Shown here: positions 5,130 through 35,911 of the stretch, one piece after another
Layout of the letters: every line of letters begins with the position of its first letter
Numbering within the stretch: the stretch's first letter is position 1
DNA from: Orenia marismortui DSM 5156
Lineage (GTDB): Bacteria; Bacillota; Halanaerobiia; Halobacteroidales; Halobacteroidaceae
DNA length: 56,684 nucleotides
Assembly: GCF_000379025.1 (NCBI RefSeq)
Contig: NZ_KB900617.1
Span: 801,903-858,586, forward strand
Reading direction: 5' to 3'
Notes under the pieces: generated by a model
Databases searched by the model: none
Told to the model about the DNA's origin: nothing
What the model saw: the letters and a program-made list of their open reading frames with translations, nothing else
Position numbers and translations under genes: made by a program

Positions 5130-5220
5130 AGTATTCTCCTTCCATTTTAATTTTTAAGTCCCATTCTCCATTTTTACTTTTTTATTAGATAAAGTAAATT
5201 TAGATATCTGTTCACTAATA

Positions 5221-5245
5221 AAAGAGGAGACTAAGTCTCCCCTTT
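5221..5245 (-). terminator. Hairpin terminator of the 5279-7693 gene
   Basis: GGAGACTTAGTCTCC is a perfect palindrome followed on the minus strand by TCTTTTA. The T tract is short, so strength is uncertain. It lies 35-60 nt past the stop codon. Confidence 0.65.
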
Positions 5246-5278
5246 AAATTAGCTAATAAACTAGACTAAACTGCTCAA

Positions 5279-7693: not shown

Positions 7694-7803
7694 TAGTCCA
7701 CTACCTTTCAAATTTTTATTTAATCTTATAGTAATTATAAGGATTTCCCCTTCTTGTATTCCTTAAAAAAGAATTTATTCAATAAAATGTAAATTAACTT
7801 CAT

Positions 7804-7845
7804 AAAAATCTGCTTAAAGAGAGGTCTTACCCCCTTTAAGCAAAT
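7804..7845 (-). terminator. Rho-independent terminator of the 7862-10690 amylase
   Basis: Minus-strand TGCTTAAAG, a loop of about 14 nt, CTTTAAGCA, then GATTTTT. It begins about 17 nt after the stop codon. Confidence 0.8.
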
Positions 7846-7861
7846 TACTTATTATCAAACA

Positions 7862-10690: not shown

Positions 10691-11046
10691 CCAGACCTTC
10701 CTTTCAAAAATTTATTTCCTAATTCAAATTATAAGGAAGGAGATTCCGACTTATAAACTTATTATTTGTAACAGTGATAAGTAACTAGTATAAAGAAGCA
10801 AAAACTTCTCACCTCTTAATAAGTACTCACCACTGTTATTTAAAAAACTTAGCTTTAAAATTCAACCTTTTTAGTTTTTAGACCAAAAGTAATTCCCTTA
10901 GAGCGACTTCTGCACAGACTACGGGTTAAAACTCGTATTTAGAGACTAATAGCTAGCTAAAAAGTGTCGCATTATCCACCATCTATAGCTCCAGATTTAA
11001 ATTATACTCTAGAAGCACGAAGCTATATCTTTTAAGCCACCACTCA
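10691..11046. other. Intergenic with palindromes and repeat fragments
   Basis: No gene seen. An imperfect long palindrome spans 10769-10837 (AACAGTG...CACTGTT). It encloses a small perfect hairpin, AGAAG-caaaaa-CTTCT. At 10893-10980 lies repeat-like DNA: a TTCCCTTAGAGCGA stretch, a TACGGGT/ACTCGTA hairpin and the GTCGCATTATCC motif that also ends the 180-bp repeat. A TATAGCT...AGCTATA pair (about 10984-11030) may help end the 11047-13479 transcript, but it has no T tract. Confidence 0.55.
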
Positions 11047-13479: not shown

Positions 13480-13574
13480 AAAAGACCTCCTTTATGATTA
13501 ACATAAATTAATTTCATCTAATTAAACTAATCAATATCAATTTATAGCTAAATAACTCTAAAATGAAACTTAAT

Positions 13575-13681
13575 GGATATAAAGAGACATTTTTAGGTGA
13601 TAGGAGTTAGGTCATAGGGGATAGTAAGGTCTTCCTACCTCCCATTTCCTAACGCCTAACTCCGAAAGTGTCACTTTATCC
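13575..13681. repeat. MITE-like imperfect inverted repeat
   Basis: About 107 bp folding on itself. Outer arms are GGATATAAAGAGACA and TGTCACTTTATCC; inner arms are GGAGTTAGG and CCTAACTCC. Its left arm TTTAGGTGATAGGAGTTAGG closely matches 52646-52665, so the two are members of one family. It lies in the leader region of the 11047-13479 gene and has no coding capacity. Confidence 0.7.
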
Positions 13682-13754
13682 TTCTATAACTACATATTTA
13701 AGTTACACTTTAGATTTTGAATATATACAGTAGATTTAATTTCTAAGCATAATC

Positions 13755-16706: not shown

Positions 16707-16752
16707 AATGCTCCCTTCCTTTCTAATATAATTTCCTATTATTTAGAATCTC

Positions 16753-16774
16753 GGGAAGACATTAATGTCTTCCC
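16753..16774 (-). terminator. Perfect hairpin after the MalS-like gene
   Basis: GGGAAGACAT-TA-ATGTCTTCCC, a 22-nt perfect palindrome 20-40 nt past the stop of the 16795-20124 gene. It has no T tract, so it could be a weak terminator, a processing signal or a 3' stabiliser. It also lies only about 47 nt upstream of the next start. Confidence 0.5.
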
Positions 16775-16794
16775 TACATTAAATATTGAAATTA

Positions 16795-19700
16795 CTAATT
16801 TACTGCTTCAATTAAGATAACTCCGTTATCAAAGTCAAACTCTACTGTACTATTACTTACTGTAGCAGTATCACCATCGTAAGCATCTCTTACTTGGGTT
16901 CCATCAGCAAAGATTCCTTCTACATTTACACTTGTAGTTCCACTTCCACCAATTGCAATTACAACTTTATCTTCCATAGCATTTCCACTATAAGTTCTAC
17001 CATAAGTGTTATTTCCTAGATCAGTTTGTTGACCTGCACCTACAGCAGGATGGTCATGTCTAAATTGACCAACTTTCTGCCAATGGGCTAAAATATCTTG
17101 ATTAGTGTTCCATTGATAATCTGATCTTGTAGGCTGATTTGCATCGCCATCAACCTCTGGTCCAAGCTCTCTAGAGTTCTCATCTCCATAATAAATCTGT
17201 ACTCCACCAGGCAATAATAGTAGCATTGTTCCCATATCTTTATTAGTATCATACCAATTATAGGTATCCCTAGCATCATGAGAATTAATATAAGTTAACA
17301 CATTCCAATCTCCATTATTAATCCGATTAGCATAATCCTGCCAAACATCTCCTACATTAGATATTGATGGAGGATTCTGGTTGAAAGAAAAATTAATTAC
17401 TGATTCAAAGTCCTGTGTACCATCTCCATCATTATCATTGAAATAATCACTTCTACCTACACCATGACCAAAGTCTTCAGCAGTCATCCAAAAATCTTCA
17501 TCCCATTCTGCTCCTGGGGCATTAGAATTCTCAGCCCTCCAAGTATCTAATGCATCTTCTGCGGCACCTTTCAATTGTCCCCATCGCCATTTTTCAACGT
17601 GTTTAGCAGTATCTACTCTAAACCCATCAATTCCAAACTCTTCTACCCACGCAGCTAACCATTTGATAATATAGTCAGCTGGTGCACTATTATTTAAATT
17701 CTTTCTTAACTCTTCAGCAGCTGGTACAATCCATTGATCATATCCACTTTGTTCCATTGACCATTTAGTCTCTAGTATTGGTGCTAATCCAATACTATTA
17801 GTTATTTCAGTTTTAATATCAGGCAAACCAGAATCAGGAAGCTGTTTTAAAGGTGGTTCCCCAAGTGGTTCATATCCAGGTAAACCTGCTCTAACCCAAC
17901 CATTCCACCAATTACTCCAAGCAGATTTATTATCATAATCAATATAATGATCATGGTAACTGTGCCAATTCTCACCGGAAGATGGTCTCCAACTCATTAC
18001 TTCTTCTTCACTAGCATCTATTCCACCAAATCCATATTGTACTCCATCCAGCATAGTGTTATAACCTGGATGATTCATTACAACATCCATTACAACTCTA
18101 ATCCCTTGACTATGAGCAGTATTTACAAAATCCCTAAACTCTTCTATTGTACCCATATTTTTATCCATCATCGTCCAATCAAGCGCATAATAACCATGGT
18201 AACCATAATGAGGGAAACCTCCAGAACCGCCACCACAAAAACCATGCATCTGTTCATATGGAGCAGTAATCCAGATTGCATTAACACCTAAGTCTTCAAA
18301 ATATCCTTCCTCTAACTTTTCAGTTAATCCAGCAATATCTCCCCCATGGAAAGTTCCTGTATTTAACTTATCACTACCATAATCAGTGATCCGTCCATAA
18401 GAATTATCATTACTTGGATCTCCATTAAAGAATCTATCGGTCATAACAAAGTAAACACTTGCATTATCCCAAGTAAACTTATCAACTACCGCTCCATCAT
18501 CTCTAGTGTAATCATAGCTTACTTCAGTTGTTCCTTCTGAGTTAGTAGCACTTGCTGTTAAAGTACCCTTCTCACCATCAGCTACATAGTCACTTATTTT
18601 AATTTCAGTAATTTCAGTAGTAGAAAGTGTAAATGTTTCACCAGCAAATTCACAACTACTAGAAGTTATACTAGCACCACCATCATCAATAGGTCCTACC
18701 TCAATTACTGTATCTCCTTTATATGTTCCACCTTTAGGAGATACTGGAATCTTTGGTTCAGATGGACCATTAAGATTATCTGTTGTCCAATCACTTCCAT
18801 CCCACCAGTATTGGCCTAAATCCTTAATTTCAGTATCGCCACCAGTTAATTTATTTCCACCATTAGCTGAATCTGTAATTATTATTCCAAAGCTAATTCC
18901 ACTTTCATAATTATTTAAATTATCTTTACTTATAGTTAATTTATACCAACCATTGCTTTCTGAGTCCATAGCAGTTTGATTATTCCAACCACCAGTAGGC
19001 TCATACTTAGTTCCATCAGTACCTGTATACCAGCTATAAACATATGGTGTAGCACTAGAATCAGATTTAAAGTGTAAAGTAATTCCCTCTGGCGCTGGAG
19101 TAGTTTCACTAACTGAATCACTTAAATCACTAGCCAAAGCATCAGCATCATAGGCTCTTACCCAGTAATAATAAGTTGTGTCACCTTGAACATCTGTATC
19201 ACTATAATTATGAGTAGTGATCGCTTTCTCCATTAAAGGAAGCTTCTCTGCCTCACTTGTTCCTCGATAGACTAAATACTTATCTGCACTATCATCCCAA
19301 GTTAAGTCTATTGCACCAGTACTTTCATTATATTTAGCAGTTAATCCAGTTGGAGCTTTAGGAGCTAACTGCCAAGTTACATTAACTTTTAATTTTCCTC
19401 CAGAAGTAGTATTCTCTAAATCAACACTAACATTCTCAGCACGACCTGGTAAAGCTTCAAAAACTTCAGTAGCTTTATCTACAATTAGATTCTCTTCACT
19501 ATCATATAACTTGACTTTTGCAGCATATTCACCAGCTGGAGTAGAACCAAAATCAGCTTTTGCTTCAGCAACATCTATCTCAGCCTCTAATCCAACCTCT
19601 TCTGGTACTATAGTCACTATTCCACTAGCAGCCTCTGCTGGCATATTCTCAAAATTCATAGTTAAATTCTTAGTAGCTTGAAGTTCTAATGTTACTGTAA

Positions 19701-20124
19701 CTGTAGACTCATCATCATTTGTAACTGCTGTTGTATCTTCAGGCGATTTGTAAGCTACAATTTCTTCATCTCCATCTACATAGATCCCCTTGATAATTAT
19801 TTTATATTTAGCATTCTTTTTTAAGTTTTTAAACTCAAGACCGACTTCTGTAGTCCCTTCCTCAATTTTAGCTTCACTTTCATGAATATCATTGCTATCA
19901 TTTACATTAATTACTTTTCCTTCTATCTTCTTTAAATTAATATCTAGTTTTTGAATACTTGCCCCGTCTTCTTGACTCCCAGGCAGCTTAACTGTAACTC
20001 CTAACTTTGATTGATTACCAGTTAGTTCATCGCTCCCCCCATTACTACTACATCCAACTAACATGAATAAAGTAATTATACTTAGTAATAAGGCTAATTT
20101 TTTTCCTCTTAATTTATAAAACAT
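16795..20124 (-). CDS. Secreted lipoprotein alpha-amylase, MalS-like (GH13), with starch-binding module
   Basis: Predicted 1109 residues. Lipobox FMLVGC (Cys25); shared N-terminal module (about 37-250, LPGR); FN3 (about 253-340); a CBM26-like starch-binding module (about 345-455, beginning ITLHFKSDS and ending QYWWDGSDW); an Ig-like spacer (about 460-545); then a GH13 barrel of the periplasmic MalS type (DRFFNGDPSND, FHGGD, HYGYHGYY). Catalytic regions are DVVMNH, GFRVDTAKH (Asp838), AED (Glu883) and NSHD (Asp950). MalS of E. coli releases maltohexaose-range products from dextrins; the same is inferred here. The starch-binding plus Ig-like unit recurs twice in the 24393-26528 protein. The ribosome site AAAGGTGGG lies before the ATG. 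Confidence 0.92.
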   Translation of the reverse strand: MFYKLRGKKLALLLSIITLFMLVGCSSNGGSDELTGNQSKLGVTVKLPGSQEDGASIQKLDINLKKIEGKVINVNDSNDIHESEAKIEEGTTEVGLEFKNLKKNAKYKIIIKGIYVDGDEEIVAYKSPEDTTAVTNDDESTVTVTLELQATKNLTMNFENMPAEAASGIVTIVPEEVGLEAEIDVAEAKADFGSTPAGEYAAKVKLYDSEENLIVDKATEVFEALPGRAENVSVDLENTTSGGKLKVNVTWQLAPKAPTGLTAKYNESTGAIDLTWDDSADKYLVYRGTSEAEKLPLMEKAITTHNYSDTDVQGDTTYYYWVRAYDADALASDLSDSVSETTPAPEGITLHFKSDSSATPYVYSWYTGTDGTKYEPTGGWNNQTAMDSESNGWYKLTISKDNLNNYESGISFGIIITDSANGGNKLTGGDTEIKDLGQYWWDGSDWTTDNLNGPSEPKIPVSPKGGTYKGDTVIEVGPIDDGGASITSSSCEFAGETFTLSTTEITEIKISDYVADGEKGTLTASATNSEGTTEVSYDYTRDDGAVVDKFTWDNASVYFVMTDRFFNGDPSNDNSYGRITDYGSDKLNTGTFHGGDIAGLTEKLEEGYFEDLGVNAIWITAPYEQMHGFCGGGSGGFPHYGYHGYYALDWTMMDKNMGTIEEFRDFVNTAHSQGIRVVMDVVMNHPGYNTMLDGVQYGFGGIDASEEEVMSWRPSSGENWHSYHDHYIDYDNKSAWSNWWNGWVRAGLPGYEPLGEPPLKQLPDSGLPDIKTEITNSIGLAPILETKWSMEQSGYDQWIVPAAEELRKNLNNSAPADYIIKWLAAWVEEFGIDGFRVDTAKHVEKWRWGQLKGAAEDALDTWRAENSNAPGAEWDEDFWMTAEDFGHGVGRSDYFNDNDGDGTQDFESVINFSFNQNPPSISNVGDVWQDYANRINNGDWNVLTYINSHDARDTYNWYDTNKDMGTMLLLLPGGVQIYYGDENSRELGPEVDGDANQPTRSDYQWNTNQDILAHWQKVGQFRHDHPAVGAGQQTDLGNNTYGRTYSGNAMEDKVVIAIGGSGTTSVNVEGIFADGTQVRDAYDGDTATVSNSTVEFDFDNGVILIEAVN

Positions 20125-20351: not shown

Positions 20352-22001
20352 TTATTGAGCAGCATAAGTTACTTCAAGTGCTTCACTTAGATCACTTCCC
20401 AAAAATCCTCCATTACTACTCTTTCTATAAGAAACAACCCAGTAATAATAAGTTGTACCTGCTTCTACATTTTCATCAACATAAGTTTTAGTATCTGTAA
20501 TTAAACTATATGTTAAAGGAGTTTTTTCGCCAGTTACTTCTGTACTACGATAGACTAGATAGCCTGCAATACCTTCTTCACTATCATCCCAACTTAGAGT
20601 TATAGCTGAATTATCTAAAGTTGATGATAAAGATACAGGAGCTTTTGGAGCTGTTTCCCAGTCTACTTCAATTCCTATTTGTGCAGACTCATCAATTACT
20701 GTTAAAGTAAATCCTACTGTTAATTCTGTTCCTGCTGTACTTCCTATAAACTCATAAGTTCCTGCTACACTTGTATCTACTATTCCATTCTCAACTATAT
20801 TCCCATCGGAATCTTCCCAAGTTAAATTCACTTCTTTTGTAGTTCCGTCACTCATTGTTGCTGTTCCTGTTGCTGCTAAAGTATATTCTTCACCTACACC
20901 TACTATTGCTTTTGAAGGATTAACCGCTAAATTTTCAATGAATATTCCTTCCTTAACTATTAACTTGAAATTCACTGTTAATTCTGTTCCTTCTACACTT
21001 CCTATAAATTCATAAGTTCCTGCTACACTTGTATCCACTTCCTTATCCCAGATTATATCTACTGTTTCTTCACTTCCATCATTATAGCTTGCAGTAGCTG
21101 TTGCTGGTAGACTATAATTACTTCCAACTTGAACTGTTGCTTCTTTTGGATTAATATCTAAACTCTCAATAGTTCTTTCTTCCTTAACTATTAACTTGAA
21201 GCTTACTGTTAATTCTGTTCCTCCTACACTTCCTATAAATTCATAAGTTCCTGCTACACTTGTATCCACTTCCTTATCCCAGATTATATCTACTGTTTCT
21301 TCACTTCCATCATTATAGCTTGCAGTAGCTGTTGCTGGTAAGCTATAACTATTCCCTACCTCTACTGTTGCTTCTTTTGGATTAATATCTAAACTCTCAA
21401 TAAATCTTTCTTCATCAGTAACTATTAACTTGAAGATTACTGTTAATTCTGTCCCTTCCACACTTCCTATAAATTCATAAGTTCCTGCTACACTTGTATC
21501 TACTTCCTTATTCCAATTCACTTTTACCGTTGATGCGCTTCCATCTGTCATTGTTGCTGTTGCAAACTGAGGTAATTCATATGTATCTCCTACTGATACT
21601 GTTATTTGAGAAGGATCAACACTTAATTCTTCTATCTCTACTGCTGTACTCTTTTTAGTTAACTTTGGAATAACAGGCATAGGGTCATCAGCTTTAACTA
21701 TATAAGATCTACTCCATTTTTCATATCCTGTCGCTGTTACTTCAACATTATAAGTACCAGGCTTAAAATCATACTCTCCACCATCATTAATTTCATCAAT
21801 TGTTTTAACTATAGCCCCATCACTATTTATAATTTCTATAGTATAATTAGCTATAATTTCACCTGTTTCAGCATCTTTAGGCACATTGATCTTTAGGATT
21901 CCTAATTCTGAACCTCCACCTCCTCCACTACTACTTGAACATCCAACTAATCCAATCACTAAAATTAAAAGTACTAATAAATAAAATTCCTTACTCCTCA
22001 A
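20352..22001 (-). CDS. Non-catalytic lipoprotein: PEGA-like, four tandem Ig-like repeats, FN3
   Basis: Predicted 549 residues from a TTG start at 22001. The upstream in-frame ATG abuts the AAGGAG ribosome site and cannot use it, whereas the TTG is 9 nt away. Lipobox GLVGC (Cys21), followed by Ser/Gly-rich spacer. About 30-120 is a PEGA-like domain (GTYNVEVTATGYEKW). About 125-445 holds four Ig-like repeats of 77-86 residues, each with the core DTSVAGTYEFIGS; the middle two are almost identical in DNA (231-bp period). About 460-549 is an FN3 domain. There is no catalytic motif. It looks like a rigid surface spacer or adhesin within the starch locus; any binding partner is unknown. Confidence 0.8.
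   Translation of the reverse strand: MRSKEFYLLVLLILVIGLVGCSSSSGGGGGSELGILKINVPKDAETGEIIANYTIEIINSDGAIVKTIDEINDGGEYDFKPGTYNVEVTATGYEKWSRSYIVKADDPMPVIPKLTKKSTAVEIEELSVDPSQITVSVGDTYELPQFATATMTDGSASTVKVNWNKEVDTSVAGTYEFIGSVEGTELTVIFKLIVTDEERFIESLDINPKEATVEVGNSYSLPATATASYNDGSEETVDIIWDKEVDTSVAGTYEFIGSVGGTELTVSFKLIVKEERTIESLDINPKEATVQVGSNYSLPATATASYNDGSEETVDIIWDKEVDTSVAGTYEFIGSVEGTELTVNFKLIVKEGIFIENLAVNPSKAIVGVGEEYTLAATGTATMSDGTTKEVNLTWEDSDGNIVENGIVDTSVAGTYEFIGSTAGTELTVGFTLTVIDESAQIGIEVDWETAPKAPVSLSSTLDNSAITLSWDDSEEGIAGYLVYRSTEVTGEKTPLTYSLITDTKTYVDENVEAGTTYYYWVVSYRKSSNGGFLGSDLSEALEVTYAAQ
20743..21570. repeat. Tandem coding repeats in the Ig-like lipoprotein
   Basis: Four in-frame units, with CCTATAAA landmarks at 20743, 21001, 21232 and 21466 (periods of 258, 231 and 234 bp). 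The two central units are nearly identical over more than 100 bp, indicating recent unit duplication or homogenisation. Confidence 0.85.
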
Positions 22002-22029
22002 AACTACCATCTCCTTGAAATATATTTTT

Positions 22030-22459: not shown

Positions 22460-24280
22460 TTAATTAGCTGGTACCCAAACACTCCAACCTTCATCAATAG
22501 AATTTTTCACTTTGAAATCTCCATACCCATCTGCATCAGTCTTAACCGTTCCTTTAACATTAGAAGTAATATCATAGAACTCAGTATTAGACTTACCTGA
22601 GTCGATTCTCTTAGTAGTTAAATCACCAGAAGTACCTTGGGAAATCATCATGACTAATCCCGTTCCTGGAACATCTGACAGACCTCCTCTAACATAAGAA
22701 TAAGTATTTACATCATTAGTCTTAACCTCTCGTCCAGGACCATAAGCAAAATATCTTCTTGCCTTTAGTAATTTATCTAGTCCTACTTTCTTTCCATCTT
22801 GGTAATAATCTTTCCAATAAACCATAGGCAATCCATCTTCTCTCATTAAAATATAAGTATAAGCTTGATACTTTCTTATATTAATTGGTGCTTTATACTC
22901 TACAATATCTCGACCAGTATCATGATTATCTATAAAAGTAACTGTTTTATCAGCAAATTTCCTCTTATTAACCATACCGGCCTTACTTAGAGTAGACATA
23001 TTTAAATTCCCATTTCTTAATGTTTCAAAGGTTTTTCTTAATGGAAAATCAAACACATGTAAATTAGGATTATTTACATCATACATATAAAAACTTAGCC
23101 CCATTGTATTCTCTACCCACGCTTCTCCTACAAAGAATACATCTTTAGCTGTATTTTCTTGAATACTACTTATCCATTCATCAATAAATTTAGAATCAAC
23201 ATGTTTAACTGCATCAAGTCTAAATCCATCAAAACCAATATCATTTATAATCCAACTTCCCCATTCCTTTAACTCATCTTTAACATTTTCATTTTGATAA
23301 TCAACATCTGCCCCTAATAGATAATCCTTCTCAAAAGTATCATCCCATGTCTTCCCTTTGAAATTTTGTGGTGCTATATTCCCTAAATTAGCAGCATAAT
23401 CTACACCATCGAAGGCCTTCCAATCCCATTTCCATTCATCAGCTTTACTATAATACTTCTGTCTTCCTTTAAGTGGATAAAATTTAGTATAAGTTTCTGC
23501 TTTCTGACCAGATGCTAAGATAGAATCCCCTATATTTTCATAACCAGCACCTAATCTATGATTTAATACTGCATCATAATAAACTTTAATTCCTTCTTGG
23601 TGAAGGTCAGCTATAGTTTGCTCCAACTCTTCTTTAGTTCCATATTTAGTTCTAACTGTGTTAACCTGATTAAATTCTCCCAAATCCCACAGATCATAAG
23701 TTCCATAACCTTCATCTTGTTGCTCATGAGCTTTATTAGCTGGTGGTACCCAAACAGAAGTAATCCCTATTTTAGCTAAATCATCTGAACGTTCAGAAAG
23801 TAGTTTCCATAGGTTTGATTCTTTTGGATATTTTTCTTTATACTTACCTTTATTCATTTCCCAATAGAAAGTTTGCATCAGAGTCTCATTAGGATCTTTA
23901 ATTTCTGGATAACTTCTACTAGTAGTAAAATCAGTTTTAGTAGATAGCTCATTTCCTGTGCTAGACTTAATATTAGTAACTAGCTGGTAATTTGTTTTGG
24001 CTTCTAATTTTAAACCTGTTAAAGTAACTACATTTCCTTCTACATTAGTCTCAATTTTAGATTTACTATCCCCTTGGACTAAAGATACTTTTGCTCCAGC
24101 AACCTTTTCATTAAACTCTAGTTTAAACTCCCCTAAAGTATAATCTACACTATTAAGATTATAATCTGTTAAATCAGAGGAAACTAGAGCAAACTCATCT
24201 CCAGTTGATTTACAACCTGTTAATGTTACTGCTAAAATTAATATAGATAGTAAAGCATACAAAGTAACTCTTTTTCTCAT
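22460..24280 (-). CDS. Secreted lipoprotein alpha-amylase, liquefying type (GH13)
   Basis: Predicted 606 residues. Signal peptide with lipobox TLTGC (Cys23) followed by Lys, unlike the Ser found after the Cys in the other lipoproteins here. Residues about 28-120 form a Big_5-like N-terminal domain, not the shared module. The barrel starts at LMQTFYWEM, typical of bacterial liquefying amylases (subfamily 5 type), with GITSVWVPPA and VRTKYGTK. Catalytic regions are DAVLNH, GFRLDAVKH (Asp356), GEAW (Glu386) and DNHD (Asp454). The overall layout recalls the AmyB lipoprotein amylase of Halothermothrix orenii (recalled from memory, not compared). It expects internal cleavage of alpha-1,4 bonds of starch. 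The ribosome site GGGGAG is well placed, and a terminator follows. Confidence 0.92.
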   Translation of the reverse strand: MRKRVTLYALLSILILAVTLTGCKSTGDEFALVSSDLTDYNLNSVDYTLGEFKLEFNEKVAGAKVSLVQGDSKSKIETNVEGNVVTLTGLKLEAKTNYQLVTNIKSSTGNELSTKTDFTTSRSYPEIKDPNETLMQTFYWEMNKGKYKEKYPKESNLWKLLSERSDDLAKIGITSVWVPPANKAHEQQDEGYGTYDLWDLGEFNQVNTVRTKYGTKEELEQTIADLHQEGIKVYYDAVLNHRLGAGYENIGDSILASGQKAETYTKFYPLKGRQKYYSKADEWKWDWKAFDGVDYAANLGNIAPQNFKGKTWDDTFEKDYLLGADVDYQNENVKDELKEWGSWIINDIGFDGFRLDAVKHVDSKFIDEWISSIQENTAKDVFFVGEAWVENTMGLSFYMYDVNNPNLHVFDFPLRKTFETLRNGNLNMSTLSKAGMVNKRKFADKTVTFIDNHDTGRDIVEYKAPINIRKYQAYTYILMREDGLPMVYWKDYYQDGKKVGLDKLLKARRYFAYGPGREVKTNDVNTYSYVRGGLSDVPGTGLVMMISQGTSGDLTTKRIDSGKSNTEFYDITSNVKGTVKTDADGYGDFKVKNSIDEGWSVWVPAN

Positions 24281-24392: not shown

Positions 24393-26528
24393 CTAATTCC
24401 TATCTTGTCTGGTAAATGTAACTTCTCTACTTACAGTACCTATTTGATTGCTAGCAGTTATAGTCAACCTACCAGTCTCCTCATTTTCTAAATAATCAGC
24501 AAGTCTTATATCTGCTTTATCTACAATATCGATTCTTTTACCATTAAATTCACAGATTAAATCTATAATCTTATCTCCATTATCTTTAATAGATAAAGTA
24601 ATACTTTTAGTTCCTAAATAAGTACCAGCTGGAGTATCTATTATAATTTCAGGTTTAGATACAAATTTTCCATCTTTATACCACCATTCACCAGCTTCAA
24701 TTCCCATTATATTTCCTGTATCACCACTATCCCAATTAATCTTTGCATTTAATTCTTCAACCTCAATATCTATTAGACTATAGCTATACCATCCATCTTC
24801 TTCCTCTAACATAGGTGTACCTGGCCATACACCAGTAGGCTCAATTTTAGCTTCACCTTTTCCTTGCCATAGATAAATATTTGGCACTTTCTTGTTATTA
24901 TTCTTAAAATGGAATGTAAAATCTCTATTAGTATTATCTTTTTTATTATCAGTATCTCCTATTGTAAATCTAGCTGTTTTTGTAATTGTTGCTATATCAT
25001 TCACTACTGTTACAGAAAGTTCTCCACTTTCATTCTCTTTAAGATAATCACCTAAAAGCACAGTAGTTTTATCTACATCTTCTCCACTAATATTCAAACT
25101 AATATCTTGGTTATTAAATCTAGCACTTGTCTCTATAATATCTTCTCCACTAATAGATATCTCCAGTTGAGTCTCAGAGTCATAAGAACCAGGTTCTAAA
25201 TCAAACTCAATTTCTGGCTTAGCTGGCTTATCAGGATTATAGGAGTACCATCGACCTTCCTGATACCACCATTCATTTTCTCTTCTATGCAAATCTTCGA
25301 ATTTTCTTCCATCACCAGATACAAAAATGATATTTATATTTCTGATCTCTGGAAACTCAGCAACATACCAATCATTAGCTTCTGATTTCATAGTTTCCAT
25401 ATCTTCTAAACTGCCTGATAATTCTATTTTTTCTTCTTGTTCATTTAGATACCAAGTATATATTTGAGGAGCTTTCTGAGCATCACTATCTTTAAAGTGT
25501 AGCTTAACACCATCATACTTACTAGGAATAGCAGTGGCACTAACCTTGGTAGATAACTCACTATTTAGCCCAGCTTTATCAATTGCTTTAACCCAATAAT
25601 AGTATGTATCACCTGCCATTGCAGTTCTATCTTTGTAATAATTATTTGTACTCTCTTCTAAGGGAGTTTTAGAACTCTTATCTGATCCCCTATAAATCAT
25701 ATAATTAGTAGAATTATCTTCCCAATTGAGCAAAATACCTGACTCTGTTGCTAAAGCAGTTAGCCCAGTAGGAGCCTTTGGTGCTACTGTAGATAACCAA
25801 GTAGTATTAACTACCTTCTCTTTAGCTAAGTCATACTCTATTTGGGTAACTCTTCCTGGTAAAATCTTAAGGTCATTAACCGTTTTTTCATAAATTGAGT
25901 TATTATCTGAATCAAATAAATCTATCTCTAATAGATATTTATTAGCAGAAATTTCATTAAAGCGAGCCACCTTATTGTCAATATTAATATCTGTTTTCAA
26001 CCCATTAGAAGGAGTTAAAAATACTTTTCCTGATTTAACTTCTGAGATTAAATTACTTAGCTTAATCACTAATCCTTTAGCATCTGTTAAATCTTCTTCA
26101 CCAAATGAAACTGTAAGTAGATTATCATCACCATTGATTGTAGTAGACTTATCATTATCTTCATAGACTATATAACCATCTTCATCCTTAACAGCTATAT
26201 CAAGCTCATATGTACTCCCTCTAGATAAGTTATTGAAGTTTAAAGAAACACTACTGCTACTGCCTTTAATCTCCTTAGTTTCACTGTCTTTATCATTACT
26301 ATTATTACGATTTACAATTGATACCTCTACCTTTTTCACGGTAAATTCTTCTTCAATCTTATCTGTTGCTTCATCTGTATCTTTCTTGGGAACTTTAACG
26401 GTTACTTTTAAATTGGAACTACCACTGAGGGTATTAGTTCTAGCACCATCACTACATCCCAATATAGTTAAGAGTAATAAGAATACCATCACTGATATTA
26501 ATACTCTCTCTAAAGCAGATTTAAACAT
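24393..26528 (-). CDS. Non-catalytic lipoprotein with two starch-binding-like modules
   Basis: Predicted 711 residues from the ATG at 26528. A GTG 9 nt upstream is possible, but it lies only 2 nt from the AAAGG site. Lipobox TILGC (Cys25); shared N-terminal module (about 35-240, LPGR); FN3 (about 245-335); then two repeats of a CBM26-like module plus Ig-like spacer. The first begins VKLHFKDSD and the second FTFHFKNNN; each has conserved Trp in IYTWY or IYLWQ and an EWWY/GEWWYKDG end. These match the module in the MalS-like protein. There is no hydrolase domain, so it is probably a starch-capturing surface protein. It lies directly between the liquefying amylase and the pullulanase. Confidence 0.8.
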   Translation of the reverse strand: MFKSALERVLISVMVFLLLLTILGCSDGARTNTLSGSSNLKVTVKVPKKDTDEATDKIEEEFTVKKVEVSIVNRNNSNDKDSETKEIKGSSSSVSLNFNNLSRGSTYELDIAVKDEDGYIVYEDNDKSTTINGDDNLLTVSFGEEDLTDAKGLVIKLSNLISEVKSGKVFLTPSNGLKTDINIDNKVARFNEISANKYLLEIDLFDSDNNSIYEKTVNDLKILPGRVTQIEYDLAKEKVVNTTWLSTVAPKAPTGLTALATESGILLNWEDNSTNYMIYRGSDKSSKTPLEESTNNYYKDRTAMAGDTYYYWVKAIDKAGLNSELSTKVSATAIPSKYDGVKLHFKDSDAQKAPQIYTWYLNEQEEKIELSGSLEDMETMKSEANDWYVAEFPEIRNINIIFVSGDGRKFEDLHRRENEWWYQEGRWYSYNPDKPAKPEIEFDLEPGSYDSETQLEISISGEDIIETSARFNNQDISLNISGEDVDKTTVLLGDYLKENESGELSVTVVNDIATITKTARFTIGDTDNKKDNTNRDFTFHFKNNNKKVPNIYLWQGKGEAKIEPTGVWPGTPMLEEEDGWYSYSLIDIEVEELNAKINWDSGDTGNIMGIEAGEWWYKDGKFVSKPEIIIDTPAGTYLGTKSITLSIKDNGDKIIDLICEFNGKRIDIVDKADIRLADYLENEETGRLTITASNQIGTVSREVTFTRQDRN

Positions 26529-26712
26529 TAATCTCACAGCCTTTCTATATCTTAATAATCATAATATAATTTATCATCTTTCTAATTATTGCTTTATTAC
26601 TTACAAAACTTGAACTGCGATCTATAACATAATATAAAATTAAATTTTATAAATTACTATTTCTACTACAAGAAAATATTTCCTTCATTAATAATTATAT
26701 AAATCAAATCCT

Positions 26713-26859: not shown

Positions 26860-29800
26860 TTATTTAATTGTATAAGTTTGATAAGTTAATTCTTGATCTA
26901 CTGTTGGATCAACTAACTTATCATCAAAAGGAGCATCAATGATATTTGTAACCTCCCAATAACCATTCATCATTACTGGTAAGATTCTTATATCATCACC
27001 AGCTTGAAGTCCTAAAGCACTAAGAGAATAACTTACTTCTATAATGCTTCCATCTGCAGAACGGTTATACTCAGCTACTGTATCATCTTGAACCTCTGTA
27101 CCTAACCAAGTGAAGGCACCATATCCAGGATTACCATCACCATCTAAATATGTGTAAAGAATACCTTCGAAACTAGTATCATCACTATAAACTATATTCT
27201 TATCTCCCCATGTCCAGCTTGTGTTAGCTCCAAGATCACTGATACCTGTGCTATCAGTTGTATTATCAATCAAAAACATAGCATCTGTACCCCAACTACC
27301 ATCAGCTAATTCCACTAACATATATAAATTATCAGTATCATTAGCTACATAAATATTTTGAACATCCATTCCTGCTGGATCAGCTATATTATCTCCAGTG
27401 TCAGTTACCCAAGCATCTGCTGTAGCATCAGTATATTTATCAGCTATAGAAGTATCATCCCAAGCTACGTCTTTATTTCCATCTACAACTATTGAATCAG
27501 ATGCAGGCTCTACTTTAATTACTGCTACAGATAATGGATCTACAGTTACTGTATCAGCAGTTACTGTTACACCAGATACAGTTGATACTGCAGTAGCACC
27601 AGACTCATCATTATCTACAAGAACTGTAGCACTTGTCAAGTCTTCTTTTACTGCAAAATCTCTTTCAATTGTATCTCCATTAATGAATACATAGTATTCA
27701 CTTAGATCTGTTGCTGTAGATTTATAAGCAATAATTTTATCTTCAGCATCTTCGGCAGGATAAATAAGCTTTACATTAGAATCAACTAAAGATTTATCAC
27801 CTAATCTAAAGGCATCTGTTGATCTTCTTAGTTTAATAAGACCTTTAGTATACTCCATAGTCTCATTTTGAACTGTATCTCCAGTTGCTGCATTCCAATC
27901 AAATGCATTAATTACATCAGATGAATCATAAGAGTTGTGAATAAATACATCTCCTGTCGCTGGTACTTCTGTATCCTCACCTTCAGGACTTCCTGTACCC
28001 TTCCACTCTTTAGTTCTACCATATTCTTGACCACCATGTAAGAAAGAAATTCCTTGACTTGTTAAGATAATAGCATTTCCAAGTCTAATTCTCTTTTGAA
28101 TCTCTTCCTCTGAATCAGCAGGTGATTTCTCAATAGATTGAGCAATCACATCATGTAAAGTTAAGTTATCATGAGCAGCAATATACTGAACAACATCGCC
28201 TGGGTCATCAGCAGTAAAGTTACCTGGCTGAGCTTTAATATTGTTAAAGATTGTTTCGATAGGTCTATCTCCACCAGTAATAAACATCGGTTGACCTTCA
28301 CTTCCATAACCAGATTTTAAGTTATTTCTAATTTCATCAGAGAATACTGCTACATCATCTGTGCTAGAAACAAAGTCTTGATCAGCACCTTCAGTACCTT
28401 CAGGACCAGTATACATTCTCCATCCTTCACCAATAAATAATGTATCAGGGTTTACTTTTGCTACAGCATCATAGGCTGATTGTATTGTCTCACTATCAAT
28501 TAATCCCATTAAGTCAAATCTAAATCCATCTACTTTATACTCTTCCGTCCAGTAAACTAATGAATCTACAATTAATTTTCTCATCATAGCATGAGTAGAA
28601 GCAGTATCATTTCCACATCCAGAACCATTAGCACCTTCTCTAAAGTAATAACCTGGATTAATTCTATCCATAATATCTGTTGCTGCCATATGATTATAAA
28701 CAACATCAAGAGTTACTGCCATACCTGCATCATGAATAGCTTGAACGAGATCTTTTAACTCTTTAATTCTTAATTCAGGATCTGTAGAATCTTCTGAATA
28801 CATTCCTTCTGGAGCAAAATAACTATGTGGATCATAACCCCAATTATAATTATTTCCACTAGAATCATACTCTGTTTCTCTTGTTCCTGACTGTGACTCA
28901 TCTCCAAAGTAATACGACATTACAGGAAGTAATTGAATATGGGTTACTCCTAAATCTTTTAAATAATTTAATTTCTCGGTAAATGCCGCATAAGTTCCAA
29001 ATTGATTTGTTAGACTAAGTCCTTCTTGAGAAGTAAAGTCTCTAACATGAATCTCCCAAATAATAGCATCCTCTCTCTTTTCAAATCCATCTACATTAGC
29101 AAAATCAAGTGTTGGTCCTACAAGAGAAGGATCTACTATAGCAGCTTTACCAACAGTATCATCACCATTACCATTAGTATCTACAGTAAATTCTGCCATT
29201 GACTTAGCATATGGGTCTAAAGCTAATCTTGTTTCACCATTTATTGTTACACTATATTGATAAAAATAACCTCTTAAATCACTAATACCAGTATTATCAC
29301 TATTTAAAGTAACTCTCCATACACTTCTTGGATCCTTTTCCATAGTAACTCTAGTAACCTCTGTATTTTGGTCAGCTTTATCATAAATAACAGCTTCTAC
29401 TTCAGTTGCTTTTGGTGACCATAAATTTAATTGTACAGTACCATCACTATTATAAGTAGCACCTAAATCATCTCCATCATAAGCAGTCAGAGAATCTTCA
29501 TACCTTGCTCCAGTATCTGCTACTACTGTCTTACCATCATAAGTAATCTCATAAGGTTTTTGATTATCAACATCTAAACTACCTGTTAATACTAATGTTG
29601 TGCCATCGACTACATCTAAACTATCAATTGTTACCTCATTACCGTCTTTATCTACTACTGCTATTTCCGATTGAGCAATTCCCATAGTATCTGTAAAGAC
29701 TACTTCAAGTTCTGTTGGACTAACAACTTCAGCAGAGATTAGACCTTCAGGAACTTCTTTATCAGAACTAATGTAGACAGTGTCATCTCCTTCGAAAATC

Positions 29801-30432
29801 CATAATTCATTATAATCTCCCAAGAATTCAAATAAATGATCTCCACCATCTTTACTAGAATCTCCCACTTCTTCATCAACAGGTACTAATCCTAAATTAC
29901 TCCCTTCCCCAGTTAATGGGACATAATAATAAGCACCAAAATCGTCTACCCCAGATTTTTGTAACCCATGTGGCCAATCTGTTGTGTTTTCTACACCATC
30001 TCCCCATAGCCATAAGGTATAAGTATCATAGTCATCCGCATTTCTTTGATAATGAACCAATGCCTTTCCTTCAGGTATATAGGTTCCACTTTGATCAATA
30101 GTTACTGTTACATCTGTAGTATCTTCTCCAGCAGTAACAACAACTTCTGTTTCACCATAATATTCTTTAGTTCCATCAACTATTGAAACTCTTAATGTAT
30201 AGTTGCCTGCCTCTACATTCTTAATAGCTGTATCTAATGACCCTTCCTTACCAGCCACAGTAACTATAGCTGTACTAAGATCAAGATCTAAATCACTAAA
30301 AGAATCAGTGTTGATGTTATCGCTACTAACTAATATATTACCAACTTTTCCTGGACCATCATCATCACTCGAGCAAGCTACTAATCCTAAAGCTAAAGTT
30401 AAAATCAATAATAAACTAAATATTTTCTTCAA
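26860..30432 (-). CDS. Secreted lipoprotein pullulanase with CBM41-like, CBM48 and C-terminal CBM9-like domains
   Basis: Predicted 1190 residues from a TTG start with GGAGGG 6 nt upstream. Lipobox GLVAC (Cys20). Residues about 25-115 form a small beta domain shared only with the 30890-33274 protein. About 120-220 is a CBM41-like pullulan-binding domain (LVHYQRNADDYDTYTLWLWG), followed by a Big-like domain (about 225-310), CBM48 (about 315-440) and a GH13 barrel. The barrel has pullulanase motif YNWGYDPHSY, DVVYNH, GFRFD (Asp640), GEGWR (Glu669) and AHDN (Asp755). The last 200 residues (DSIVVDGNKDVAWDD onward) resemble a CBM9/DOMON-like domain. It is predicted to cleave alpha-1,6 branches. It is the largest protein in the window, and its leader carries a terminator-like hairpin. 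Confidence 0.93.
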   Translation of the reverse strand: MKKIFSLLLILTLALGLVACSSDDDGPGKVGNILVSSDNINTDSFSDLDLDLSTAIVTVAGKEGSLDTAIKNVEAGNYTLRVSIVDGTKEYYGETEVVVTAGEDTTDVTVTIDQSGTYIPEGKALVHYQRNADDYDTYTLWLWGDGVENTTDWPHGLQKSGVDDFGAYYYVPLTGEGSNLGLVPVDEEVGDSSKDGGDHLFEFLGDYNELWIFEGDDTVYISSDKEVPEGLISAEVVSPTELEVVFTDTMGIAQSEIAVVDKDGNEVTIDSLDVVDGTTLVLTGSLDVDNQKPYEITYDGKTVVADTGARYEDSLTAYDGDDLGATYNSDGTVQLNLWSPKATEVEAVIYDKADQNTEVTRVTMEKDPRSVWRVTLNSDNTGISDLRGYFYQYSVTINGETRLALDPYAKSMAEFTVDTNGNGDDTVGKAAIVDPSLVGPTLDFANVDGFEKREDAIIWEIHVRDFTSQEGLSLTNQFGTYAAFTEKLNYLKDLGVTHIQLLPVMSYYFGDESQSGTRETEYDSSGNNYNWGYDPHSYFAPEGMYSEDSTDPELRIKELKDLVQAIHDAGMAVTLDVVYNHMAATDIMDRINPGYYFREGANGSGCGNDTASTHAMMRKLIVDSLVYWTEEYKVDGFRFDLMGLIDSETIQSAYDAVAKVNPDTLFIGEGWRMYTGPEGTEGADQDFVSSTDDVAVFSDEIRNNLKSGYGSEGQPMFITGGDRPIETIFNNIKAQPGNFTADDPGDVVQYIAAHDNLTLHDVIAQSIEKSPADSEEEIQKRIRLGNAIILTSQGISFLHGGQEYGRTKEWKGTGSPEGEDTEVPATGDVFIHNSYDSSDVINAFDWNAATGDTVQNETMEYTKGLIKLRRSTDAFRLGDKSLVDSNVKLIYPAEDAEDKIIAYKSTATDLSEYYVFINGDTIERDFAVKEDLTSATVLVDNDESGATAVSTVSGVTVTADTVTVDPLSVAVIKVEPASDSIVVDGNKDVAWDDTSIADKYTDATADAWVTDTGDNIADPAGMDVQNIYVANDTDNLYMLVELADGSWGTDAMFLIDNTTDSTGISDLGANTSWTWGDKNIVYSDDTSFEGILYTYLDGDGNPGYGAFTWLGTEVQDDTVAEYNRSADGSIIEVSYSLSALGLQAGDDIRILPVMMNGYWEVTNIIDAPFDDKLVDPTVDQELTYQTYTIK

Positions 30433-30889: not shown

Positions 30890-33274
30890 CTACTGCACAA
30901 GTAAGAATCTTCCTGTTAATCCATCTACAGGAATATCATAGTCTCCAGAACCAGTTATCTCCTCACCTGTCAATAGATCAACTAACTTAGTTCCACCTAC
31001 ATTAGAAACTGAGATTGTAGTTTCACTTGTTCCTGTATTCAATACATAAACTATCTCTTCTCCTGTATCTAAATCTGTTTTAAGATCAGCATATTTAGTA
31101 TTTTCAGCTACTAAATTACTTCTCTCACCATTCCATAATGCAGGATGATTCGCTCTTATCTCCATTAATTTAGAAACATAATTTTTCAAGTCAAGCTCAG
31201 CTGTTGTAAACCCTGAAATTTTACCTTCACTCCGTGCAACATTATCGTCATAAACATCAGCAATGTCATTATCATTCACATAACCTTCTCTTTCATCTCC
31301 CCATTCATCACCATAATAAAGGGTAACTGGACCTGTATAAGCCGCCATAAAGCTAAATGCTGCCTTATGTCGTTTCCAATAATCAGGATTCTCTGTACCA
31401 TAACCTAAATGAGGTGCTCTTTGAATTAAGTCTCCAAAGCGAAGTAAGTCATGGTTAGTTAACATCAAGTTAGGTTGTGCATAATCTTCATAGACATTAT
31501 GAGTTTCCAGTCCTTCGTTTAAAGCCGATGCATCTTTCCCTCCAGAACCACTTTCTTCAGCCGCTAAGACTTGAACAAGTCTATATCGCATTGGGAAATC
31601 AAAAGCTGATCTTAATCCATTTTGACTATATCCTGTATCATTAATATCATTCTCACCTTTCCAAATCTCACCAACCATATAACCTAAGGTTCCCCATTTT
31701 TCTCCTGCTGCTTTACGTTCTGCAGTTACTTCTTCTACACTTCTTCTAATCTCATTCCAATAATTATGACCATCTTGATACAATTGATATGCTTGATCTA
31801 ATCTCCAACCATCAATCTCAAACTCTTCAATCCAATAGGTAGCAACCTCTTTATAAAAATCCAAGCTCTCTGGATAATCTACTGGATCATTTGGACCTGA
31901 AGGAGTATACCCTGATGGTGAAGCAGGTATGTTAATATCTTTGTGATGACCAAAAACTCCATCGAGGAATACATATAATCCTCTGGCATGTGCTTCATCA
32001 ATTACTTCCTTCAATTTAGTATTGCCACCCCAATTATCATCTACATTAAAGTAATCCTTAGCAAAATAACCTGTTGCATCTAATTTACTTTCTCCATCAG
32101 ACTCAAAGACAGGAGTCAACCAAATAGCATTCATCCCCAAATTTTTAATATAATCAAGAGAATCAATAACACCATCTAAATCTCCATAAGCATCAGCATT
32201 CCCCCATACTTCAGGGAAATTTTCCTTACCATCACCATCTAAGAAGGTCGCTACAAAGATCTCATAAATTCTTAAATTATTAAACTCTTTAACTTTAACA
32301 AGCTCTTCCATAGAATACCTAGAACCTATCGCCGCCTCTACAGACTTACCATCATAAGTTATATTATAAGGAGCTTGATTATCAGGATCTAAAGTAGAAG
32401 ATACTAGAGTTAATATCTTGTCATCAACAATCTCCAAAGAATCAATAGTAATCTCTGATCCAGTTTTATCAGTTACTGATATTTCAGATTTAGCAATTCC
32501 CATAGTACTTAAAAATCTGGCTTCAATTTCTGTTGGACTAATAACCTCAGCAGATACTATTCCCTCAGGAAAATCTTTATCTGCACTAGTATAGATATTA
32601 GTATCACCTTCAAAGATCCACAACTCACTATAATCACTTAATAACTCAAATAGATGATTCCCGCCATCCTTATTTTCATTAGTATCAACAGGAATTAAGC
32701 CAATATTATTACCTCCATCTTCTGCTAAAGGAATATAGTAATACGCACCAAAGTCATCTTCTCCAGATTTTTCATAGCCATTGGGCCAATCATTTTCACT
32801 ATCAGAATCTACTATACCATCTCCCCAGGCCCATAAAGTATAAGCATCATAGTTGCCGTCATTTCTTTGATAATGAATTAAAACTTTTCCTTCTGGTACA
32901 GATGTTTGCTTTTGATCAATAACTATAGTTCCAGCATAATTATCCTCTCCTGCTGTAACAGTAATTTCTTTTTCACCATAATATTCTATACTACCATCTA
33001 CCACTGAAATAGTTAAATTATGAGTTCCCTCTTTAATATTACTTATAGTCTCATCTAACTTACCTGTTTTGCCAGCAATCTTTACCTCAGCTGATGTAAG
33101 ATTTAGTTCATTAATACCAAGGTTAGGACTAACTGTAACATTTGAACTTTTGACAATTACATTACCAATGTTTTCCGATTCACTATCATCACTACTACAT
33201 CCTGCAAAGACTCCTAAAGTTAATAAGAGTACTGTTAATAGGATGATTTTTTTCTTATTTAAGATCTTCAGCAT
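30890..33274 (-). CDS. Secreted lipoprotein GH13 enzyme, hybrid of two neighbours
   Basis: Predicted 794 residues. Lipobox VFAGC (Cys26). Residues about 30-125 and the following CBM41-like (about 130-235) and Big-like (about 235-325) domains parallel the pullulanase at 26860-30432 (HYQRN, DDFGAYYY, ELWIFEGD in both). From about residue 328 (FNNLRIYEIFV) to the end it parallels the 11047-13479 enzyme instead. Catalytic regions are FLDGVFGHH, GWRLDQAYQ (Asp493), GEIW (Glu536) and NHD (Asp609), so it should be active. The two halves resemble different partners, indicating domain swapping within the locus. The CBM41-like domain would direct an amylase-type barrel to branched glucan. A GGAGGT ribosome site lies 8 nt before the ATG. 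Confidence 0.9.
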   Translation of the reverse strand: MLKILNKKKIILLTVLLLTLGVFAGCSSDDSESENIGNVIVKSSNVTVSPNLGINELNLTSAEVKIAGKTGKLDETISNIKEGTHNLTISVVDGSIEYYGEKEITVTAGEDNYAGTIVIDQKQTSVPEGKVLIHYQRNDGNYDAYTLWAWGDGIVDSDSENDWPNGYEKSGEDDFGAYYYIPLAEDGGNNIGLIPVDTNENKDGGNHLFELLSDYSELWIFEGDTNIYTSADKDFPEGIVSAEVISPTEIEARFLSTMGIAKSEISVTDKTGSEITIDSLEIVDDKILTLVSSTLDPDNQAPYNITYDGKSVEAAIGSRYSMEELVKVKEFNNLRIYEIFVATFLDGDGKENFPEVWGNADAYGDLDGVIDSLDYIKNLGMNAIWLTPVFESDGESKLDATGYFAKDYFNVDDNWGGNTKLKEVIDEAHARGLYVFLDGVFGHHKDINIPASPSGYTPSGPNDPVDYPESLDFYKEVATYWIEEFEIDGWRLDQAYQLYQDGHNYWNEIRRSVEEVTAERKAAGEKWGTLGYMVGEIWKGENDINDTGYSQNGLRSAFDFPMRYRLVQVLAAEESGSGGKDASALNEGLETHNVYEDYAQPNLMLTNHDLLRFGDLIQRAPHLGYGTENPDYWKRHKAAFSFMAAYTGPVTLYYGDEWGDEREGYVNDNDIADVYDDNVARSEGKISGFTTAELDLKNYVSKLMEIRANHPALWNGERSNLVAENTKYADLKTDLDTGEEIVYVLNTGTSETTISVSNVGGTKLVDLLTGEEITGSGDYDIPVDGLTGRFLLVQ

Positions 33275-33991: not shown

Positions 33992-34077
33992 TCCAATTCC
34001 TTTGACCTTAATTATTTTCTACCTAAATAGTTATAAATTAATATAAGTCCAATAATTTTAAGTTATAATAAAAAATA

Positions 34078-34177: not shown

Positions 34178-34215
34178 AAAAAAGGATAAAGACCCTATGT
34201 TAGACATAGGGTCTT
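34178..34215 (-). terminator. Rho-independent terminator of the porin
   Basis: Minus strand: AAGACCCTATGT-cta-ACATAGGGTCTT, then TATCCTTTTTT. It starts 11 nt after the stop codon. Confidence 0.88.
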
Positions 34216-34225
34216 AAAGTGGTTT

Positions 34226-35827
34226 CTACCACCAAAGTTCAGCTTGAACTCCGTAAGCCATACCACTATCATCATCAGCATATGGTTCTGGCAAAGAAGC
34301 ATTATCATTAACACTTGCATAAGTTGCAAATACTCTTAATTCTGGTCGTCCCCAGAAAGAATTGCTTAACTTAAGAGTCGGAGCAACAGTAAACTTGTGT
34401 AGTTTTTGATCCTCTACCCAACCATTAGTTTGGTCATAACTCTCAAATCCATATTCAAACTGCATAGAGAAGTTATTAGTGATATATCTAACTGCTCTAG
34501 CACCAATCATCATTCTAGTTTCGTCTTCTGGATTATCTACACCATACTTATCTGAGTAAGTTTCATAGATAAATTGAGGCATAATGTCCCAATTTTCATT
34601 GATATTAGCTAATCCATAAGTAATAAATGACATAGCAGAAGCATCCTCACTAGTGTAACCAATTGCATTACCTAAGTCAGCACCAATGCTGTCACCATAC
34701 TGTACAATAGCTTTACTGAACCCATCTGCAAAACCATAGAAGTCAGTACGACTATAAATGAAATCTAATTCATAACCTGTTACATCATTACCATTAGGAA
34801 CATCAGTTTGCCAAGCATATCTAGCTTCAACTTCTAAGTTACCACCTGGTACTACGATATCCTTAAATCTTAAATCAATATTTTTCTGAACTTTTTCACC
34901 AAGATCAGGTTGAGCATTTAATCCATCATCAGTTCCACGCACAAGAAAAGCAGCATCTAAAGTAGTAGCTCCAAGCTTAATACCTTGAGCACCAGCACCA
35001 AATGCATCTAACTCTCTCCAACGATTATCAGTAATATGGATATCATCTCTTCCATAATATCTCTCACCAACCCAGAAATTAACATCTGGTGCAACATCAA
35101 ATCCTCCACCTTCTACATAAGCTTGACGAAGTGTAGATTTTTGTCCAGCGTCATTTCCATAAGTTTGATAGTCTAACTTTTTGTTAGCTAATAAAATATT
35201 AGCTTTCATCCAAGAACCATTATCTCCAGTAAACTTCTTACTAAATGTTTGTTCTACATAAGTATCATTTTCGTTTCCTAGTCTCCATCTAGAATAGTAG
35301 TCAGCGAATAATCCCATATGACTATCTAATGCTCCACCTTCTCCAGACAATAAAACTCCAGCACGAGCATATCCACTGTAGTTGAATCCAATATTAGTTA
35401 CTGCCATTTGCTTCTCTAAAGCAATAACACGAGAAGCTAAACCAGCATTAGGATCAGCGATTACAACAGAGTTTTGTCCACCGAATCCATCAGCTGCAAA
35501 ACTTGCTGCTTGATCATCTTTGATCCATTGAAGCATTCCACCACCATATACAGTAAATTTGTATTGGTATTTACCTTTCTCTAATTGTGTAGTTAATGTC
35601 CATACACCATTTTCTTTCTTCATCTTGTAAGTTGGGAAATTTGGTAACCAGTTGTTGAATTCCCCAGCTACATAAACTGCGTTTGCATCAGGATTTCCTG
35701 CATAAGTAAATGTTACTTCTACTTTTCCATCTTCTCCAGGTCTAACTGAAGTTTTTGCAAAAGCTGGTAGTGCAACTAATGCAACCATTAATGCTACTGT
35801 TAAGAATAAACTAAATCTTTTCTTCAA
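34226..35827 (-). CDS. Outer-membrane beta-barrel protein with N-terminal CBM48/AMPK glycogen-binding domain
   Basis: Predicted 533 residues from a TTG at 35827. The ATG 15 nt upstream sits inside the GGGGGG ribosome site, while the TTG is 7 nt past it. A cleaved signal peptide (ends LPAFA) has no lipobox. Residues about 30-120 form a CBM48-type domain (VYVAGEFNNWLP, KYQYKFTVYG). A short helix (about 123-140) leads into about 390 residues of alternating beta strands rich in Tyr/Phe/Asp, closing with AELWW: a terminal aromatic as in outer-membrane barrels. A porin placing a glucan-binding domain at the pore mouth or periplasmic side is the natural reading. Beside eleven starch lipoproteins it is the likely entry point for maltodextrins. 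It has a long structured leader and a strong terminator, suggesting high expression. Confidence 0.85.
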   Translation of the reverse strand: MKKRFSLFLTVALMVALVALPAFAKTSVRPGEDGKVEVTFTYAGNPDANAVYVAGEFNNWLPNFPTYKMKKENGVWTLTTQLEKGKYQYKFTVYGGGMLQWIKDDQAASFAADGFGGQNSVVIADPNAGLASRVIALEKQMAVTNIGFNYSGYARAGVLLSGEGGALDSHMGLFADYYSRWRLGNENDTYVEQTFSKKFTGDNGSWMKANILLANKKLDYQTYGNDAGQKSTLRQAYVEGGGFDVAPDVNFWVGERYYGRDDIHITDNRWRELDAFGAGAQGIKLGATTLDAAFLVRGTDDGLNAQPDLGEKVQKNIDLRFKDIVVPGGNLEVEARYAWQTDVPNGNDVTGYELDFIYSRTDFYGFADGFSKAIVQYGDSIGADLGNAIGYTSEDASAMSFITYGLANINENWDIMPQFIYETYSDKYGVDNPEDETRMMIGARAVRYITNNFSMQFEYGFESYDQTNGWVEDQKLHKFTVAPTLKLSNSFWGRPELRVFATYASVNDNASLPEPYADDDSGMAYGVQAELWW

Positions 35828-35911
35828 TTCAATACCCCCCATAAATTTTTTGAGTTTTAATTTAAATTATAAATAACTCCAACTTCTAAAACCTCTAACC
35901 TAAACAACTAG

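Follow-up and report, generated by a model that had tools for sequence, protein, structure and literature searches.

A LamB-family porin with an N-terminal CBM48 domain in a starch locus of Orenia marismortui

The outer-membrane proteins LamB and ScrY (PF02264; 1mal and 1a0t) are 18-strand barrels with a greasy slide, an ionic track and a C-terminal Trp residue. In the 18-strand porins of this family both termini are periplasmic, as is the N-terminal extension of ScrY; a ScrY lacking 70 residues near its N-terminus reportedly behaves in a LamB-like manner (Schulein 1995, cited in PMC4753733). In the Sus system of the Bacteroidota (SusCDEF), starch binding works together with lipoprotein amylases and an outer-membrane channel, the channel being a TonB-dependent transporter and the binding lipoproteins facing outward.

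OmpM of the diderm Firmicutes consists of an SLH domain, a coiled coil and a barrel; its SLH domain lies in the periplasm, where it attaches to peptidoglycan (PMC10628300, PMC5007114), and the protein acts as both tether and porin (PMC10628300). The outer membranes of the Halanaerobiales are known from electron microscopy and genomics (PMC5007114). CBM48 domains are found in AMPK beta, branching enzymes, pullulanases and the plant protein PTST. In AMPK beta-1, glucose is contacted by Trp100 and Trp133 through stacking, by Lys126, Asn150 and Gln124 through bonds, and by Leu146 and Thr148 through packing (PMC9788615). Mutation of the two corresponding Trp residues of PTST leads to loss of starch binding (PMC4339375).

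The protein described here, from Orenia marismortui DSM 5156, shares the barrel type, slide, track and terminal Trp of LamB and ScrY and, like the latter, has an N-terminal extension, but adds a CBM48 domain, an Arg in place of Tyr118 and a Firmicute host. With OmpM it has in common a putatively periplasmic N-terminal carbohydrate-binding domain, a helical linker and a barrel; unlike OmpM, its barrel is that of LamB, CBM48 takes the place of SLH, the linker is shorter and the locus is catabolic. As in Sus, putative starch binding, lipoprotein amylases and a channel occur together, though here with a passive porin and a probably inward-facing domain. Its CBM48 belongs to the same domain family, with the same glucan-contact residues, as those listed above, but sits on an outer-membrane channel and not on an enzyme, kinase or scaffold. 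LamB, CBM48, periplasmic N-terminal porin domains and the Halanaerobiales outer membrane are each already known; we place their combination in the LamB family as a novel variant. No fusion of CBM48 to a maltoporin, porin or beta-barrel was found described in the open-access literature, subscription papers and annotated-protein databases being outside the search.

The fusion gene and its neighbourhood

The window, that is the whole stretch of DNA analysed, comprises 56,684 nucleotides. The features of the fusion gene are as follows:

34226..35827 (-), CBM48-LamB fusion gene, 533 aa, TTG start and GGGGG ribosome-binding site
35756..35827 (-), signal peptide, residues 1-24 (...VALPAFA), read from the sequence; hydrophobic helix 7-17 in the model
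35450..35752 (-), CBM48/AMPK1_CBM domain, residues 26-126 (Pfam, PDB sequence matches, alignment)
35399..35437 (-), short helical linker, residues 131-143 (model helix, pLDDT about 45-54; alignment)
34229..35386 (-), LamB maltoporin barrel, residues 148-533, 18 strands, WW end (Pfam, model, fold comparison)
34189..34215 (-), intrinsic terminator, 12 pairs and a T tail, immediately 3' of the fusion-gene stop codon
36157..36184 (-), weak candidate promoter lying some 330 nt upstream, TTGAAA-16-TATAAT, its second hexamer preceded by TG

The domain identities are supported by three Pfam matches: LamB (PF02264; E-value=5e-81, 274 bits against a curated cut-off of 25.1), covering profile positions 1-378 of 378 and residues 155-538 of a 538-aa form; AMPK1_CBM (E-value=2.4e-10, 40.9 bits, cut-off 26.8); and CBM_48 (E-value=1.1e-6, 29.4 bits, cut-off 22.4). 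Since all of them exceed the curated cut-offs, the fusion architecture is not due to chance. The product of 34226-35827 begins with a signal peptide and continues with a glycan-binding domain of the CBM48/AMPK type, a short helix and the full LamB barrel. The 538-aa form would start at an alternative ATG at 35842, and the 533-aa form at the TTG at 35827. The GGGGG ribosome-binding site and the TTG are kept in four species, which identifies 34226-35827 as the correct extent of the reading frame.

Because the terminator lies immediately 3' of the stop codon, the fusion gene is probably transcribed alone. Promoter-like sites near the gene were about as numerous as the mean of shuffled sequences. 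A cre (CcpA) site was sought because a gene for HprK adjoins, and none was present at one mismatch or fewer; an Rfam search upstream of the gene revealed no leader. Four imperfect intergenic repeats of approximately 170-190 nt, with the core CCACAGATGAACACGGAT, lie at 33411-33996, in the gap that separates the fusion gene from the next lipoprotein gene. This core occurs in 11 copies genome-wide, all on a single strand and mostly clustered.

The neighbouring lipoprotein genes, identified with Pfam and by their lipoboxes, are:

30890..33274 (-), lipoprotein with PUD and GH13 domains
26860..30432 (-), lipoprotein of the pullulanase type with PUD, CBM48, GH13 and SpuA_C domains
24393..26537 (-), lipoprotein with CBM26
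22460..24280 (-), GH13 lipoprotein
20352..22010, lipoprotein with Big_4 domains
5279..7711 (-), PEGA lipoprotein
2055..20124 (-), further lipoproteins, with GH13 in those at 2055, 7862, 11047, 13755 (with CBM48) and 16795

A sequence-only reading of this DNA had placed a channel-CBM48 fusion within a starch locus next to eleven starch lipoproteins. The Pfam matches and the adjoining GH13 genes bear out the location, and lipoboxes are present in all 11 reading frames between 2055 and 33274. Eight of the lipoproteins carry GH13 and one CBM26; the description as starch proteins does not extend to the PEGA and Big_4 lipoproteins, which have no recognised glucan domain. A c-di-GMP-II riboswitch (22212-22297, minus strand; 54.9 bits, cut-off 53.5) lies directly upstream of the Big_4 lipoprotein gene, which may for this reason respond to cyclic di-GMP.

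Conservation of the locus is supported in all four Halanaerobiia genomes with a fusion, where the gene is flanked on one side by a conserved block that includes ROK and HprK and on the other by at least two genes for GH13 lipoproteins. In the distant genome G401 a GH13 lipoprotein gene, whose product is 49% identical to that of 22460..24280, follows directly downstream of the fusion gene, with ABC-type permease genes nearby. The LamB genes without a CBM48, plain or with SLH, are located in unrelated sugar loci, which suggests that the CBM48 goes with starch loci. The O. marismortui genome as surveyed (3.46 Mb, nine contigs) also encodes, outside the fusion locus, a MalE homologue (37% identical to that of Cetobacterium), accompanied by two permeases and a LacI-type regulator.

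The channel and the carbohydrate-binding domain

The AlphaFold2 model, based on 17 aligned sequences (mean pLDDT 76.4, pTM 0.63), contains 18 barrel strands within residues 149-532. Comparison of the whole model using VIA-align gave a match to ScrY (1a0t; Z=32.9, rmsd 3.2, 371 residues) and to maltoporins (Z=29-31), the alignments to ScrY and LamB spanning approximately 350-370 residues, while the next porin reached only 21.5. In phmmer searches ScrY (E-value=7e-22) and a maltoporin (E-value=6e-20) were matched. The double-Trp beta-barrel of the sequence-only reading is confirmed by the C-terminus (...AELWW) and by the modelled strands, which together with the fold matches support a closed C-terminal barrel. 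What had been called simply a porin can now be placed in the LamB maltoporin family. The barrel is, by sequence, a member of the wider PF02264 family; with NCBIfam PRK09360, which describes LamB in the narrow sense, it scored 189.5 bits, below the cut-off of 394, and membership of that subfamily is not claimed.

The channel residues were compared with those that we take to form the greasy slide, ionic track and constriction of E. coli LamB. At the slide positions Y6, Y41, W74, F227, W358 and W420 the alignment has Y, Y, Y, F, W and W, all six aromatic, and the track residues R8, R33, E43, R82, R109, D111 and D116 are all retained. The constriction residue Y118 is replaced by Arg in the window protein and in two relatives. 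The conserved slide and track point to a LamB-family channel that is specific for sugars, probably maltodextrins. By analogy with its homologues, the fusion protein would be a trimer.

The CBM48 region is modelled as beta strands with pLDDT about 80-89. With only six alignment rows the model had a pLDDT of 51 and a disordered CBM, which became ordered when ten CBM-only rows were added. Foldseek and VIA searches with the whole model gave match lists filled by barrels. Alignment and PDB sequence matches equate W60, Q88, K90, W101 and N119 with W100, Q124, K126, W133 and N150 of AMPK beta-1, and W60, K90, W101 and N119 are invariant across the four Halanaerobiia fusions. The Trp/Lys carbohydrate face envisaged from the sequence is accordingly present, with both Trp residues, the Lys and the Asn retained; L146 and T148 of AMPK are replaced by F115 and G117. 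From these residues we infer that the domain would bind alpha-glucans.

The possibility that the CBM48 was taken from a neighbouring pullulanase was rejected, the pullulanase CBM48s of the window being far more distant from it than CBM48s of other Bacillota. A tree of the CBM domains had no well-supported branches. The closest non-porin relative found (52%) is one of two CBM48s that precede a GH57-like catalytic part in a WOR-3 protein (L017 625-3681, plus strand).

Distribution and probable barrel exchange

LamB was found in 5 of 59 genomes of the class and in 3 of 398 sampled genomes of the phylum, namely that of the window and two of another class (G269 and G401), all three with CBM48. A search of 29 genomes of the latter class revealed no further LamB. 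Altogether eight LamB genes were recovered from seven Bacillota genomes; six of the genes carry CBM48, one carries SLH and one is plain, and the fusion is present in six of these seven genomes. The Bacillota proteins form one group in a tree of the barrels, moderately supported (91/86), beside the branch of Cetobacterium and ScrY.

LamB-like matches occurred in 382 plasmid records, mostly of enterobacteria; among the approximately 60 matches listed none starts before query residue 102, and hence none of those shows a CBM48. Genome contigs scanned with a profile of the CBM and linker yielded fusions only in Orenia metallireducens and Halanaerobacter jeridensis; the strict seeds missed those of G401 and G269. 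On reading their sequences, a WOR-3 match was rejected as a GH57-like glucan enzyme, and Bacteroidales matches because they resemble esterases. A scan of viral contigs revealed no relative of the fusion. Four proteins of 650-740 aa from other Bacillota (L061 2248-4188, minus; L062 2588-4789, plus; L063 3270-5501, plus; L070 2131-4296, minus) have an N-terminal CBM48 and further CBM48/CBM20-like inserts, the rest being without a Pfam match. The first three end in a beta-signal-like ...F, and the four may represent a second kind of CBM48 outer-membrane barrel.

Within the Halanaerobiia the CBM48 and linker are 66-94% identical and the barrels 48-64%; within Orenia, dN is 0.04-0.06 for the CBM against 0.27-0.45 for the barrel. 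Between genome G057 and O. metallireducens, dS is 0.30-0.44 for four neighbouring genes (HprK, HutP-like, ROK and a fourth) and 0.30 for the CBM48 (93% identical), but 0.94 for the barrel (48% identical). Between the window and these two genomes the neighbouring genes have a dS of 0.87-1.39, against 0.32 for the CBM48 (90-92% identical). Identity between the window protein and that of O. metallireducens falls from 0.80 (residues 121-160) to 0.45 (residues 161-200), and the tree of barrels places that of O. metallireducens outside those of the window, G057 and Halanaerobacter (100/100). The simplest reading of these comparisons is that, between sister Orenia species, the barrel was swapped behind a constant module of signal peptide, CBM48 and linker. 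Strong expression of the gene, with its limits on codon choice, may also account for the low dS of the CBM48. Phages use LamB as a receptor; attack on the outer side, with the inner side left constant, would be in keeping with exchange of the barrel.

Membrane side and proposed role of the CBM48

A gene for a LamB barrel preceded by SLH and a helix, at the position of the CBM48, was found in the Halanaerobium-like genome G024 of another family of the same class (L006 1498-3150, minus strand); O. metallireducens possesses a second LamB, with only a short helix there. In the Orenia fusion protein, which has no SLH match in Pfam, the linker helix 131-143 occupies the place of the ScrY/OmpM coiled coil in the alignment. 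Since the N-termini of homologues are periplasmic and, as the most telling evidence, SLH stands at the equivalent place in a relative, the CBM48 most likely faces the periplasm, below the channel exit, and not the cell exterior. The sequence-only reading had also seen strong evidence for an outer membrane in a Firmicute, which is correct and had already been established for the Halanaerobiales. The genome encodes two POTRA (BamA-like) proteins (Pfam; C1:762733-763380 and 1114795-1115451), the second next to genes that read as LpxD-, Skp- and TamB-like.

A periplasmic CBM48 would meet maltodextrins as they leave the channel. We consider it somewhat better than an even chance that the protein is a maltodextrin channel with a periplasmic CBM48 trap that captures exiting glucans. 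The trimeric channel would bear, on its periplasmic N-terminus, an alpha-glucan-binding CBM48 on a short stalk. Neighbouring lipoprotein amylases and pullulanases would cleave starch or glycogen, the maltodextrins would travel down the greasy slide, and the three CBM48s per trimer, beneath the channel mouth, would seize the emerging chains and hinder their back-diffusion. The chains held might then be handed to periplasmic enzymes or to the MalE homologue and a MalEFG-type importer encoded elsewhere. Against this reading stand the loss of AMPK L146 and T148, the Arg at LamB position Y118 and the location of the MalEFG-type genes outside the locus; in addition, the affinity of CBM48s is often weak, and some may act merely as spacers. 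The open-access literature searched yielded no description of a passive sugar porin with a binding module at its exit. Should the trap operate, it would illustrate a way for a channel that has no energy source to favour inward flux, and the fusion is a natural construct in which this can be tested with the CBM48 present, absent or point-mutated.

CBM48s frequently pack on the catalytic domains of GH13 enzymes, and synteny with GH13 lipoproteins is conserved, as would be expected if the domain mainly bound proteins (periplasm-facing amylases or pullulanases, or the MalE homologue) or gated the pore. The conservation of free glucan contacts, namely both Trp residues, the Lys and the Asn, is expected of a ligand-binding and not of a packing domain, and renders such a role unlikely. 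The SLH of the close LamB relative, and the tether and porin functions joined in OmpM, raise the further possibility that CBM48 replaces an OmpM-like SLH and fixes the outer membrane to a periplasmic glucan or a glucan-bearing cell-wall polymer. However, the genome already encodes an SLH protein (599 aa) with a barrel-like C-terminus, the fusion is found in starch loci and not in an outer-membrane cluster, and we know of no ligand for CBM48 in the cell wall; this tether we regard as quite improbable. The patchy distribution of the fusion, and the Orenia paralogue without CBM48, might indicate a chance fusion with little effect on transport, but the CBM is better conserved than its barrel and was retained when the barrel was replaced, so that a relic of this kind is very hard to credit. 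Substrate docking at the channel, as first suggested from the sequence, survives only when turned inward: the surrounding genes do act on starch, but with both termini periplasmic in this family, and the SLH/OmpM precedent, a CBM48 docking starch at the outer entrance is barely conceivable.

The periplasmic trap can be extended, tentatively and at less than even odds, to a modular set of diderm-Firmicute maltoporins in which exchangeable LamB barrels follow a fixed periplasmic part, be it CBM48, SLH or no domain at all, and in which the CBM48 would make a passive porin one-way-like for long maltodextrins. The findings also show that diderm Firmicutes, a group in which most porins known are OmpM tethers, have sugar channels of the LamB family that follow a like, probably inward-facing, design, and that a constant periplasmic domain can be kept while the barrel behind it is exchanged. 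The SLH-LamB protein of L006 appears to be a sugar-specific porin which may also tether the outer membrane.
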